The position numbers were made by a program, and so were the translations under genes. Source: Pseudoxanthobacter soli DSM 19599 (GTDB lineage Bacteria > Pseudomonadota > Alphaproteobacteria > Rhizobiales > Segnochrobactraceae). Taken from it: 64,000 nt of DNA. Each line of letters starts with the position of its first letter. Position 1 is the stretch's first letter. The notes under the pieces are model-generated. The model was not told the DNA's origin and ran no database searches. It saw only the letters and a program-made list of their open reading frames with translations. The stretch is from positions 892,414 through 956,413 of the forward strand of contig NZ_FRXO01000001.1 in assembly GCF_900148505.1 (NCBI RefSeq). The letters are read 5' to 3'. Below, piece after piece: positions 40,894 through 61,750 of this stretch.

Positions 40894-41532
40894 ATGTCCA
40901 ACGAGTTCGAGCGTCCCATGCCCGAGTTAATGAGTGGTGACTTCTCGGCCGCAGACGAGCCTTTCGCCCTGTTCGCCGAGTGGCTCGCCGATGCCACGGC
41001 CTCCGAGCCCAACGATCCGAACGCCATGGCACTGGCCACGGTGGACAACGATGGTTTGCCGGATGTGCGGATGGTGCTTTTGAAGCATGCCGACGTGGAA
41101 GGATTCGTGTTCTACACGAATTATGAAAGCGCCAAGGGCCGGGAGATCCTCGGGCATCCCAAGGCGGCGCTGTGCTTCCACTGGAAGAGCCTGCGCCGCC
41201 AGGTGCGTGTGCGGGGGCCGGTGACGCCCGTCGACGGCGCGGAGGCGGACGCCTATTTCGCGTCGCGCCCTCGCGGAAGCCGCATCGGCGCGTGGGCCTC
41301 GAAGCAGTCGCAGCCGCTCGAAAGCCGGTTCGCGCTCGAGAAGGAGGTCGCGCGCTACACGGCGAAGTTCGGCCTGGGCACGATCCCGCGCCCGCCGCAC
41401 TGGTCCGGGTTCCGCATCGCGCCGGTCGCCATCGAATTCTGGCACGACCGCCCATTCCGCCTGCACGACCGCATCAGCTTCACACGCCCGCATCCCGGCG
41501 CGGCCTGGGATAAGGCGCGGCTCTACCCGTGA
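40894..41532 (+). CDS. pdxH: Pyridoxamine 5'-phosphate oxidase
   Basis: Oxidises PNP and PMP to pyridoxal 5'-phosphate with FMN and O2. The 212-residue chain has [47 protein letters not shown], the [20 protein letters not shown] loop and the closing [12 protein letters not shown], then ARLYP, all family hallmarks. The ATG at 40894 (MSNEFERP) is the family start; the same frame is open to 40336 but overlaps the lipoprotein gene. PLP made here would serve the desulfurase and the aminotransferase in the window. Confidence 0.96.
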
Positions 41533-43273: not shown

Positions 43274-43350
43274 TGGTCGGAGTGGCAGGATTTGAACCTG
43301 CGACCCCCTCGTCCCGAACGAGGTGCGCTACCAGGCTGCGCTACACTCCG
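43274..43350 (-). tRNA. tRNA-Pro, anticodon CGG
   Basis: The reverse strand gives acceptor CGGAGTG, D arm GCGCAGCCTGGTAGCGC, anticodon loop TTCGGGA (anticodon CGG at 43314-43316), T arm GGTTCAAATCC and an encoded CCA. It reads CCG codons, which are abundant in this GC-rich genome. Confidence 0.97.
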
Positions 43351-43622
43351 TCCCGCGGTGTTTGCCGCGCCGGTCTTATAGCGAGGGGCGCCGACGGCTG
43401 CAAGCGCCATCGGCACGGAATTCACAGCCCTTGTTGCGCGCCGCGATTTTCCTGTTCGAAGCGTTGGGAAGCCGCGGAATTCCAAAGCCGGCAACGCTCC
43501 CAGAGGCGCTTTCCGGGCCGTTTGATACGTTTGGAACCGCCGATCAGTATGATTTTTGCTGCTACGCACAAAATGCATGGCAGGGATGCCGACATTTGGC
43601 TGGCCTCCAATGCTGCATCGCG

Positions 43623-43700
43623 GTATCAAGAACACGCCCTCTTTGGGCGTTTCCTCCCTAGACTTAAGACCGCGCGCTCGTTCGCTGCGGTCTTTTTTTT
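43623..43700 (+). ncRNA. mmgR: MmgR-like small RNA (alpha-r8 family)
   Basis: A 78-base unit built of a hairpin (ACGCCC 43634-43639 / GGGCGT 43645-43650), the unpaired decamer TTTCCTCCCT (43650-43659), and an intrinsic terminator (AAGACCGC 43666-43673 / GCGGTCTT 43687-43694 with a T-run to 43700). This order, the decamer and the length of about 77 bases are, from memory, the defining features of the rhizobial Hfq-binding sRNA MmgR, which limits polyhydroxybutyrate granules in Sinorhizobium. The 5' end is set by family length only. No coding gene precedes the terminator on this strand. The 43351-43622 stretch should hold its promoter; I could not assign one. Confidence 0.72.
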
Positions 43701-43784
43701 GTCTGCATTGCAGCGTCGTGCGCCTTTCGCCCTTCCGCCGCCGCCGCTTCACAGCCCCTCTGGCCCGTGCTCTATCATCTCCCG

Positions 43785-44624
43785 ATGTTCGAATCGCTCG
43801 CCGAACGCGGCTTCCAGATCGCGTTCCTGTCCCATGCCAAGGCCATTCTCGGGGTCGATTTCCCCGACGCGCTGGCGGAGCTCGAGGCCGCGCTCGCGGG
43901 GCTGTCGATTCCGATTGCGGAGATCGTCGGGTCGGGCGGCGGCGAGGCCAAGGGCACGCGGCGGCTGCGAGAGGCACTGGCCGCGAGCCACTGGGTGAAG
44001 ACCAAGTTCACCATCGAGAAGCGCATCAACGGCGTCCCGCGCGAATCCATCAGCCACGAGGTCGACCACGTCCGAACCTTCCCGGACGGGCGGGTCGTCG
44101 CACTTGAGATCGAATGGAACAACAAGGATCCGTTCTTCGACCGCGACTTGGAGAACTTCAAGCGGCTGCACGCCGAGGGCGCCATTTCGGTCGGCATCAT
44201 CGTCACCCGAGGCGCGTCGCTGCAGGATGAACTACCCACGCTCGTTCGCCGCTTCGCCCGCGAGCAGGGCCTGGAGACGCTCGACCAGATTCGCGCACTC
44301 GGCCTCAACCCGACGCCGCGCCAGAGCGCGGACATCGTCCGTCGCGCCTCAGCGTCTGGTGGATCGTTCGTCGATGCGTGGGCGTCGGTGTTCTGCGCCG
44401 ACAAGTATGGCGCCGCCACGACGCACTGGCGCAAGCTGGAGGACCGTGTGAAGCGCGGCGTGGGCAATCCCTGCCCGCTGCTTCTGATCGGCCTGCCCGC
44501 CGCTATCGTATCCTTCGACGCGCCGCTCGCCGGCGACGATCCCGATCAGTTGTCCCTGACCGACCTCTTGCCCGAACTCGATCGGACGGGCGCAGTGGCC
44601 CGGGGCGAGGCCGAGAGAGCATAG
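43785..44624 (+). CDS. BglII-family type II restriction endonuclease
   Basis: A 279-residue protein resembling the BglII restriction endonuclease family (PF09195). The core SHEVDHVRTF...VALEIEWNNKDPFFDRDLE gives D-x13-E-x-E, like the D-E-x-E/Q active sites of BamHI and BglII; SVGIIVTRG follows, as in the family. No methylase overlaps it, but an MT-A70 methylase lies 660 bases on. Start is uncertain: ATG 43785 or GTG 43767, neither with a good ribosome binding site. The cut sequence cannot be told by eye. Confidence 0.75.
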   Translation: MFESLAERGFQIAFLSHAKAILGVDFPDALAELEAALAGLSIPIAEIVGSGGGEAKGTRRLREALAASHWVKTKFTIEKRINGVPRESISHEVDHVRTFPDGRVVALEIEWNNKDPFFDRDLENFKRLHAEGAISVGIIVTRGASLQDELPTLVRRFAREQGLETLDQIRALGLNPTPRQSADIVRRASASGGSFVDAWASVFCADKYGAATTHWRKLEDRVKRGVGNPCPLLLIGLPAAIVSFDAPLAGDDPDQLSLTDLLPELDRTGAVARGEAERA

Positions 44625-44697: not shown

Positions 44698-44817
44698 TAG
44701 AGCATATCCTTGTCGTTCAGATCGGATCGATCTGAACGACAAGGATATGCTCAAGCTTTTGAATCTGGAGCGATTTCTTTCCGATCTGAAGAGTCCATCA
44801 GATCGGAAAGCGCTCTA
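44698..44817. repeat. Composite palindromic repeat, perfect module A plus module B
   Basis: Module A has a perfect 24-base stem (44700-44723 with 44729-44752) around GGATC. Module B follows: CTTTCCGATCTGA (44777-44789) pairs with TCAGATCGGAAAG (44798-44810), with outer GAGCG/CGCTC. This is the best-preserved copy of the family. Its right edge CGCTCTAG supplies the TAG stop of the TM2 gene on the reverse strand. Confidence 0.93.
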
Positions 44818-45126
44818 GCCGTATTTCGCCGCAAAAGCTTCGTCGCTCATCGTCAAGTAGATGATGAACTCGATGAAAGCCAAGATGGCCGGAATAAACG
44901 TCCAGCAGAACAAAAGATAGAGCAAGCCTGTCCAAGGCCGGCCGAGATAGAAGCGATGGACGCCGAAGCCGCCGAGGAAAAAGGCGAGCAACGCGGCCGT
45001 AACGCGGCTCTTGCGGCCTATGGCACCCGGTTGTACCGCGCCGCAATGCGGGCACGCCCGGGCGGAAGCGTGCAACAGTTGCCCGCATCCCACGCAATAT
45101 TTCTGATCGACGATCGTCTGCGACAT
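44815..45126 (-). CDS. TM2 domain-containing membrane protein with zinc ribbon
   Basis: A 103-residue protein. Residues 10-30 hold two CxxC knuckles (YCVGCGQ and CPHCGAV), a zinc-ribbon. Residues 42-95 are a TM2 domain: two helices flanking GGFGVHRFYLGRPWTGLLY, whose motif is characteristic. Localises to the inner membrane; function unknown. It lies between the restriction nuclease and the methylase. Its stop codon is inside the palindromic repeat, so the last residues may have been reset by it. Confidence 0.88.
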   Translation of the reverse strand: MSQTIVDQKYCVGCGQLLHASARACPHCGAVQPGAIGRKSRVTAALLAFFLGGFGVHRFYLGRPWTGLLYLLFCWTFIPAILAFIEFIIYLTMSDEAFAAKYG

Positions 45127-45283: not shown

Positions 45284-46069
45284 TCATTCCGCAGCGTCGG
45301 CGCGCGTGGTTGCGGAATTGTGGGCGTAGGTATCCCAAGTCGGTTCGTAGCTCTCGTCGGCCTGATTGCCCCAGGTCGCCCAGCCCTTGCGCACGCCTCG
45401 GCCGAACATCTCGAGATAGGGACCGGGCGAGCACGACTCGATGATGCCGTATTGCTCGTCCGGCTTGCGCGAATGCTCGCGCTTGCGCGTCGCTAAATAG
45501 TTCACCTGGGTACGGCCGGGATCCAGGGTCCGGGCATTGCGGCCGCGGGTGCCGAACAGGATGAGCTCGGTCACGTTGCGGAAATAGAAGCCGACGCCAC
45601 GGCCGTCGCTGCCGCCGTCCTTGCGCACCTTGTGCCAGACGATGTTGGACTTGTAGGTGAAGCCCCATGCCTTCAGCACCTGCAGCCCCTCGGGCAACAG
45701 CGCATTCGGAACCCAGAGATAGAGGTGAGCGGTGGGTGCGGCCACATCCGCCACCGGCAACCCCGCGATCTCCGGCAGCGAGAGGGTGCCGTAACGCGAC
45801 AGCCGGCGATGCTCCGGCGCGACCTTTCCCGTGCGATTGACGAACTGCCACGGCGGATCGGCCATCACGGTGGCGAACCGCCGGCCGGCAGCGAACCGCA
45901 GCAGATCCTGTCCGGGCGACTCCTGCACCACTGACTCCTGCCTCTGTGATTCCTGCCCCGCCGCTTCCGGCACGGCGGCAACATGCGCGGTCGAATCCTG
46001 CATGGACCCGGGCTTACGGGCGCGCAGCCGGACAGCAGCAGATTTCGCGGCGTCGTTGCGAGCCGGCAT
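45284..46069 (-). CDS. MT-A70-family N6-adenine methyltransferase
   Basis: A 261-residue methylase with ATVMADPPWQF (the catalytic DPPW), then AHLYLWVPNALL, GFTYKSNIVWHKVRK and FRNVTELILFGTRG, typical of the MT-A70 group that methylates adenine in DNA or RNA. The start at 46069 has GGAG upstream and a Gln/Glu-rich tail of about 60 residues precedes the catalytic domain. Beside a BglII-family nuclease it is probably the protective methylase; alone it could be a solitary regulator. Confidence 0.88.
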   Translation of the reverse strand: MPARNDAAKSAAVRLRARKPGSMQDSTAHVAAVPEAAGQESQRQESVVQESPGQDLLRFAAGRRFATVMADPPWQFVNRTGKVAPEHRRLSRYGTLSLPEIAGLPVADVAAPTAHLYLWVPNALLPEGLQVLKAWGFTYKSNIVWHKVRKDGGSDGRGVGFYFRNVTELILFGTRGRNARTLDPGRTQVNYLATRKREHSRKPDEQYGIIESCSPGPYLEMFGRGVRKGWATWGNQADESYEPTWDTYAHNSATTRADAAE

Positions 46070-46281
46070 TCCAGTCTCCAGGCAGTCCCGAACGCACGGG
46101 CGAATCGAAACGGGGCGGGCTCGAATCCCCCGCACGGACGGCACCAGCCTAGCGGTCCCGTTCGAAATCCGCGACCGGATTTGCGCGAGACCTGTCGCGC
46201 AATGCGCGCGCGAAACGCACATGGCGGCAGGTTGCCCCGCCGCCATGGCCGCAATGCGTCAGTCTCGCGCGACCGGAGCCG

Positions 46282-59944: not shown

Positions 59945-61750
59945 ATGAACGAGCGGAACGACAATCCGCTGTACAAATATATCGTGCAGGATCCGGAGGC
60001 GTTCGCCCAGAACCTGGCACGGTTCATCGAGGAGGGCGGCAAGGCTGTCGCCGCCTATATCGAGCCGCGCGAGAAAGGCGAAGCCCGGACCCGCGTCGCG
60101 GACGACATCGCCGAGGTGATGAAGACCATCGGCCAGATCAGCGAATATTGGCTGTCGGATCCGCAGCGCGCGGTGGAGGCTCAGGCGCGGCTCTGGTCGG
60201 GCTACATGGATCTCTGGGACCAGTCGCTGAGGCGGATGATGGGCGAGCGCTCGCGCCCCGCCGCCGAACCGGATCAGCGCGACCGGCGGTTCCGCGATCC
60301 GGAGTGGAGCGAGAACCAGTTCTTCGACTTCCTGAAGCAGGCCTATCTCATCACCACCCGGTGGGCCGATTCCCTCGTCGAGGGCGCAGACGGGCTGGAC
60401 GGCCACACCCGCCAGAAGGCCGCGTTCTATATCCGCCAGATCGCCAACGCGATCTCGCCGTCGAACTTCGTGCTGACCAACCCCGAACTCCTCCGAGAGA
60501 CCGTTTCGAGCAACGGCGAGAACCTCGTGCGCGGCATGAAGATGCTCGCCGAGGACATCCGGGAGGGCAAGGGCGACCTGAAGCTACGCCAGACCGATAC
60601 GACCAAGTTCAAGGTCGGCGAGAACCTCGCCGTGACCCCAGGCAAGGTGATCGCGGAGAACGCGCTGCGACAGCTCATCCAATATTCGCCGACGACGGAG
60701 ACGGTGCGGAAGCGTCCACTGCTGATCGTGCCGCCCTGGATCAACAAATATTATATTCTCGACCTCAATCCAGAGAAGTCGCTCGTCAAATGGCTCGTCG
60801 ACCAGGGACACACCGTGTTCATGGTGTCATGGGTCGATCCGGGGGCCGAACTCGCCGAGAAGACCTTCGAGGACTACATGCGCGAGGGCATCCTCGCGTC
60901 CCTGGACGACATCGAGAAGGCAACCGGGGAGAGCGGCGTCGATGTCACCGGCTACTGCGTCGGCGGCACGCTGCTCGCCGTCGCTCTGGCACACATGGCC
61001 AATGCCGGCGACAGCCGCATCAAGACCGCCTCGTTCCTGACGGCCCAGACCGATTTCTCCCATGCCGGCGATCTCAAGGTGTTCGTCGACGATCGCCAGC
61101 TTGAGATTCTCGAGACGCGCATCAACGAGCGCGGCTATCTGGACGGCAGCGTGATGGCGCGCACCTTCAACATGCTGCGCTCCAACGACCTGCTGTGGCC
61201 CTACGTCATCAACAACTACATGCGCGGCAAGGAGCCGTTTCCGTTCGACCTCTTGTTCTGGAACTCCGATTCCACGCGCATGCCGGCGGCGAACCACATC
61301 TTCTACATGCGCCGCTTCTATCTGGAGAACGCGTTCGCCAAGGGCCAGCTCTCCATCGACGGCGAACCGCTGCGGCTCAAGAAGATCCGGGTGCCCGCCT
61401 ATCATCTCGCGACCCGCGAGGATCACATCGCGCCGGCAAAGTCCGTGTTCACCGGCGCTGCGATGTTCGGCGGACCGGTGCGTATGGTCGTCGCCGGTTC
61501 GGGCCACATCGCCGGCGTGTGCAACGCCCCGGTGCTCGGCAAGTACCAGTACTGGACCGGTCCCGCCCCGTCCGGCGCGTTCGAGGACTGGATCGCCAAT
61601 GCCAAGGAGCATCCCGGGTCATGGTGGCCGGACTGGGATGCCTGGCTAAAGAAGCACGATTCCGAGATGGTCCCGGCACGCGTTCCGGGCGAGCGCGTGG
61701 GCGTCATCGAGGACGCGCCCGGCCGCTATGTCATGACCAAGGCGGCCTGA
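59945..61750 (+). CDS. phaC: Class I poly(3-hydroxyalkanoate) synthase
   Basis: Polymerises (R)-3-hydroxyacyl-CoA into PHA granules. The 601-residue chain has the PhaC box GYCVGGT with the catalytic Cys, [22 protein letters not shown], the Asp in REDHIAP and the His in GSGHIAG; class I size. The ATG at 59945 ([16 protein letters not shown]) has AGGAG upstream; the open frame to 59825 is not supported. No phaA, phaB or phaZ is adjacent. An MmgR-like sRNA elsewhere in the window may tune granule formation. Confidence 0.96.

Follow-up and report, generated by a model that had tools for sequence, protein, structure and literature searches.

The small RNA gene and its neighbourhood

The DNA analysed here (the window) is a 64,000-nucleotide stretch of the Pseudoxanthobacter soli DSM 19599 genome. 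Its features are listed in Table 1, together with the related RNAs found elsewhere in the genome. A covariance search matched a segment of the forward strand to the Rfam family RF00519 (suhB/mmgR) with 67.6 bits (E 8.5e-12), the curated gathering threshold of the family being 41 bits. The initial annotation had named this RNA alpha-r8/MmgR by its motifs, and the covariance search bears the name out. The hairpin, decamer and strong Rho-independent terminator that it had described are present in that order. In the predicted fold, the decamer UUUCCUCCCU is single-stranded after the short hairpin, with its first U closing the hairpin. The RNA folds better than all of its dinucleotide shuffles (200/200, z -4.05). 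The feature is a genuine member of the alpha-r8/MmgR family, which is well described. It resembles MmgR (sm8, SmelC689) of S. meliloti, also of RF00519, an RNA of ~77 nt with a hairpin, a UUUCCUCCCUAGACUU core and a terminator. On the other hand, the window copy has a different upstream region and is not linked to a gene for N-formylglutamate amidohydrolase, a neighbour that is usual in the family but not obligatory. A C-rich anti-Shine-Dalgarno motif is also found in the CCUCCUCCC-loop aSD RNAs SmelA075 and SmelA099, which belong to a different family and repeat the motif in several hairpin loops (PMC3927594).

Table 1 Features of the window and related RNAs of the genome
Feature	Position	Strand	Basis or remark
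Pyridoxamine-oxidase-type gene	40921-41532	+	Nearest plausible upstream gene on this strand
tRNA gene	43277..43350	-	Upstream, antisense to the RNA
Upstream block common to copies C1:978715 and C1:978955	43545..43628	+	Duplicated promoter region, TGC-rich boxes
Alpha-r8/MmgR-family small RNA gene	43629..43707	+	RF00519 covariance match
5' hairpin ACGCCC-TCTTT-GGGCGT	43634..43650	+	Sequence and folding
Family core decamer TTTCCTCCCT, anti-Shine-Dalgarno	43650..43659	+	Sequence; same as the alphaR8 core in PMC12559287
Segment predicted to pair with alpha-r9	43651..43677	+	8 + 6 + 8 pairs, one U.U mismatch, one bulged A, plus end pairs; -39.2 kcal/mol
Rho-independent terminator	43666..43700	+	Sequence and folding; stem ~43666-43693, then eight T (T-run to 43700)
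BglII-type restriction endonuclease gene	43788..44624	+	PF09195, E 5.6e-24; neighbour only
TM2-domain protein gene	44815-45126	-
phaC, PHB synthase	59945..61750	+	PF07167 (PhaC_N), E 2.5e-78; start codon is the analyst's choice
Alpha-r8 tandem pair	C1:978715, C1:978955		RF00519
Alpha-r8 tandem triple	C10:141646, 141893, 142276		RF00519
Alpha-r9 RNA beside proS	C5:303792-303991	-	RF02343

Concerning the surroundings of the gene, the upstream forward strand had been described as free of coding genes, and no plausible gene was identified between position 41532 and the RNA. A simple scan found no consensus sigma-70 promoter for the window copy. A sigma-54 promoter was also considered and discarded, as -24/-12 elements sought by eye had unsuitable spacing. 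The gene adjacent to the RNA is a restriction gene, as had been noted, and encodes a BglII-type endonuclease, but adjacency is as far as the relation goes. The small RNA was found at none of 80 loci with BglII-type relatives (0/80), and a same-family genome (G002) has neither at its syntenic position; the endonuclease gene is therefore a chance neighbour. In G002, the pyridoxamine-oxidase gene, a metallo-hydrolase gene and, beside the latter, the syntenic tRNA, there a tRNA-Pro (CGG), are conserved together. No BglII-type, TM2 or MT-A70 protein was found in this syntenic stretch, and the RF00519 matches of that genome sit on other contigs. In the window, an MT-A70-type methyltransferase gene (45284-46084, -) lies near the endonuclease gene, and the two are a possible restriction-modification pair. 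The phaC gene reported in the same window was also located, 16 kb from the RNA.

Copies of alpha-r8 and candidate mRNA targets

The covariance search revealed six RF00519 matches in the 5.16-Mb genome, all above the threshold: the window copy, a tandem pair 43 kb from it, and a tandem triple. In contrast, MmgR is single-copy in S. meliloti (PMC12559287), where its gene adjoins that for N-formylglutamate amidohydrolase. The triple also adjoins a gene for this enzyme and, as this is the usual position of the family (PMC12559287), is likely the orthologous locus. Dispersed extra alphaR8 copies are known for the family (PMC12559287). At least one RF00519 match was present in 272 of the 297 genomes searched within the order, and we rejected the notion that six copies might be a record, as other genomes of the order reach ten. 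Inspection by eye indicated that many of the copies beside N-formylglutamate amidohydrolase genes have promoters of the form TTGAC, a TGCGCTGCA-type dyad and CATATT. Those copies also carry an extra inverted repeat (for example GCGGTA...TACCGC) just before the start of the Rfam model, and copies of the window type do not.

The window copy and the tandem pair have in common the sequence of the terminator stem and ~85 bases upstream. The window copy is a lineage-specific paralogue related to the pair. It might be an inert duplicate of the pair (C1:9787xx), considering that a consensus sigma-70 promoter was not found and that the locus is not conserved in two same-family genomes. We regard this as unlikely, since the core, hairpin, terminator and upstream block have been kept between the copies while the DNA farther upstream can no longer be aligned.

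In order to evaluate targets, the exposed 17-nt core of alpha-r8 was paired with gene leaders, using as a background random 60-mers of the window, 5% of which reach -12.8 kcal/mol. The initial annotation had suggested that the RNA would place phaC under post-transcriptional control. The genome does contain hfq, a PhaR gene and three phasin genes. However, the duplexes predicted for the core have energies of -11.0 kcal/mol with the leader of phaC, -7.7 to -9.2 kcal/mol with those of the three phasin genes and -11.3 kcal/mol with that of phaR. The values for phaC and the phasins are weaker than those of the best 5% of random 60-mers; their leaders display no special complementarity, and we did not retain this proposal. 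Taking into account that MmgR limits PHB and phasin proteins in S. meliloti (PMC8401924) and that phaC, phasins and PhaR exist here, the window RNA might still be a plain MmgR-like regulator of PHB storage that represses phasins or phaC, its match to alpha-r9 (see below) having no regulatory role. We find this very unlikely. Besides the weak pairing of all these leaders, even in S. meliloti no mRNA is known to pair directly with MmgR (PMC12559287), whose effect on PHB and phasins may be indirect there, and the conserved 20-bp complementarity between alpha-r8 and alpha-r9 would be left unexplained.

Among the leaders of the window, that of the TM2-domain gene was the best, its Shine-Dalgarno region pairing with the core at -22.1 kcal/mol with many G-U pairs. 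This candidate was set aside, as 61 genomes offered no good orthologue with which conservation could be tested. In the whole genome there are 8 perfect AGGGAGGAAA sites, three of them on the strand opposite alpha-r8 copies; the reversed pattern has 4, and 13-mer sites are not in excess (25 vs 33). An exact decamer complement precedes the start codon closely in genes for a periplasmic sugar-binding-type protein (C6), an SMP-30/gluconolactonase-type protein (C4) and a polyketide-cyclase-type protein (C7). These would fit a role in carbon use, though the sites are few and show no statistical excess. Near-exact complements of the core occur just before the start codons of two genes for ABC-type substrate-binding proteins, C8:59160 (assigned by eye) and C6:259759 (assigned with Pfam).

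Complementarity between alpha-r8 and alpha-r9

The best non-self site similar to the core complement belongs to an intergenic RNA with a terminator of its own (C5:303918, -) rather than to an mRNA leader. The covariance search assigned this RNA to RF02343, alpha-r9 (SmrC9, also sra32 and SmelC289), with a borderline score of 45.6 bits against a threshold of 45; scores in relatives are higher, reaching 137 bits. Alpha-r9 has been known since 2007, and the open literature searched assigns it no function or partner. It consists of about five hairpins and generally lies beside proS in Rhizobiales (PMC3927594). With the Rfam model it was detected in 15 of 61 same-order genomes, and proS-like sequence was found near all 15 loci. 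A second match in one of these genomes (G014) is weak and does not contain the conserved block. When the 15 alpha-r9 RNAs were aligned, GTCTTGGGAGG did not vary and the GCGGTC in front of it hardly did, at a mean column identity of 51%. One genome (G045) has an alpha-r9 with the block and no detected alpha-r8, and many genomes without a detected alpha-r9 have an alpha-r8 that keeps its core and flank. In S. meliloti, replicon CP090106 carries both RNAs: alpha-r9 (141.8 bits) adjoining the gene for proline-tRNA ligase, and mmgR (61.3 bits) adjoining that for N-formylglutamate amidohydrolase. This PLSDB entry (CP090106.1), labelled as pSymB of S. meliloti, has a length of 3.72 Mb and includes proS, hisN and mmgR; it looks like a mislabelled chromosome.

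The alpha-r8 segment UUUCCUCCCUAGACUURGGCCGC is predicted to pair with the alpha-r9 block GCGGUCURAGUCUUGGGAGGA through ~20 pairs. The predicted pattern is one of 7-9 pairs, usually one U.U mismatch, and then mostly 12 or 13 more pairs, at times interrupted, which extend to the 5' arm of the terminator of alpha-r8. Cognate pairs were examined in 14 same-order genomes that carry both RNAs and in S. meliloti, and in all 15 the duplexes had energies of -32.9 to -43.8 kcal/mol. MmgR and alpha-r9 of S. meliloti form 7 + 13 pairs around one U.U mismatch, with a joint-fold gain of -24.6. For the window copy (-39.2 kcal/mol), 1000 shuffled alpha-r9 sequences gave a mean duplex energy of -21.8 kcal/mol; their minimum of -35.2 comes near the observed value because the segment is G+C-rich. 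Its joint-fold gain was -20.5, compared with -4.9 ± 2.6 for shuffles, and on the two strands of 464 kb no other site was better than -34.6 kcal/mol. In terms of simple matches, alpha-r9 agrees with the complement of the 17-nt core at 15 of 17 positions, and no other site in 400 kb exceeds 13 of 17. In addition, TAAGTCTTGGGAGGAA of alpha-r9 complements 16 nt within the alpha-r8 copy C10:142276 without a mismatch. Cognate pairs had a mean of -38.96 kcal/mol and permuted pairs one of -38.01, and 0.85% of 20,000 permutations were as good. The advantage is small (~1 kcal/mol) and represents a modest sign of co-evolution.

We considered whether chance accounts for the complementarity: alpha-r9 might have kept a G-rich purine block for its own fold or for another partner, and this block might merely happen to match the anti-Shine-Dalgarno core. 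GGGAGG is indeed Shine-Dalgarno-like, and the Rfam model places a small hairpin and a CGCG helix at the block, the CGCG part of which is also needed for the fold of alpha-r9 itself. Nevertheless, the complementarity continues through AGACUU and the terminator arm, beyond what likeness to a Shine-Dalgarno sequence would account for. In the alpha-r9 sequences inspected, the block does not stand directly before a start codon, and the shuffle, background and permutation tests all disagree with a chance match, which makes this explanation quite improbable. On the side against a functional pairing, the alpha-r9 site is only partly unpaired in the predicted folds (mean 0.2-0.6), and pairing requires the terminator stem of alpha-r8 to be opened.

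Alpha-r9 as a proposed sponge of alpha-r8

In Caulobacter crescentus, the alphaR8 RNAs SisA-D are inactivated under carbon starvation by the RNA CrfA, which pairs with their core (PMC12559287). The situation here is similar in that there are several alphaR8 siblings with the same core, and in that alpha-r9, with its G/A-rich site, is predicted to pair with this core. It differs in that the candidate sponge is alpha-r9 (RF02343), whose predicted pairing is longer and reaches the alpha-r8 terminator stem. Rfam did not detect alpha-r9 in a Caulobacter control genome. With a probability of roughly 0.65, we infer that the window RNA, as one of six paralogues, is a trans-acting small RNA that represses mRNAs via Hfq and is itself controlled by alpha-r9 as a sponge. 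As expected from the family, alpha-r8 would act with Hfq, and its single-stranded decamer would pair with Shine-Dalgarno regions and lower translation, the targets probably being mRNAs for sugar uptake or carbon use rather than phaC. By analogy with CrfA and SisA-D, the alpha-r9 beside proS would set the activity of alpha-r8, its block pairing with the core and the 5' arm of the terminator. This would mask the core, and the opening of the terminator stem may expose alpha-r8 to RNases and decay.

Complementarity does not tell direction, and alpha-r9 might be the regulated partner, removed by alpha-r8 and having its real targets elsewhere; with its five or so hairpins it could have other partners (PMC3927594). 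We give this possibility a small chance. In the one tested case, CrfA and SisA, it is the G/A-rich RNA that sponges the C-rich alphaR8 (PMC12559287). Furthermore, in one genome (G012) alpha-r9 carries a second hairpin with a loop, AGGGAGGAAA, that complements the decamer exactly, as expected of a sponge. In terms of expression, SmrC9 binds Hfq, as assayed in log phase, its phase of highest abundance (PMC2848018), and MmgR builds up as cells enter stationary phase (PMC7143759). These patterns are compatible with antagonism and do not prove it.

That alpha-r9 is a conserved antisense sponge of alpha-r8/MmgR across the order, to which S. meliloti appears to belong together with this genome, acting through ~20 bp over the core and terminator arm, seems to us slightly better than an even bet. 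The open-access papers searched do not state such a role for alpha-r9. If true, two orphan rhizobial small RNAs would share a function through this complementarity, and alpha-r8 would be subject to sponge control in two orders, by sponges that are different or have strongly diverged. The idea can be tested in S. meliloti, and bears on what switches MmgR and on why the conserved segment of this RNA is longer than pairing with a Shine-Dalgarno sequence needs.
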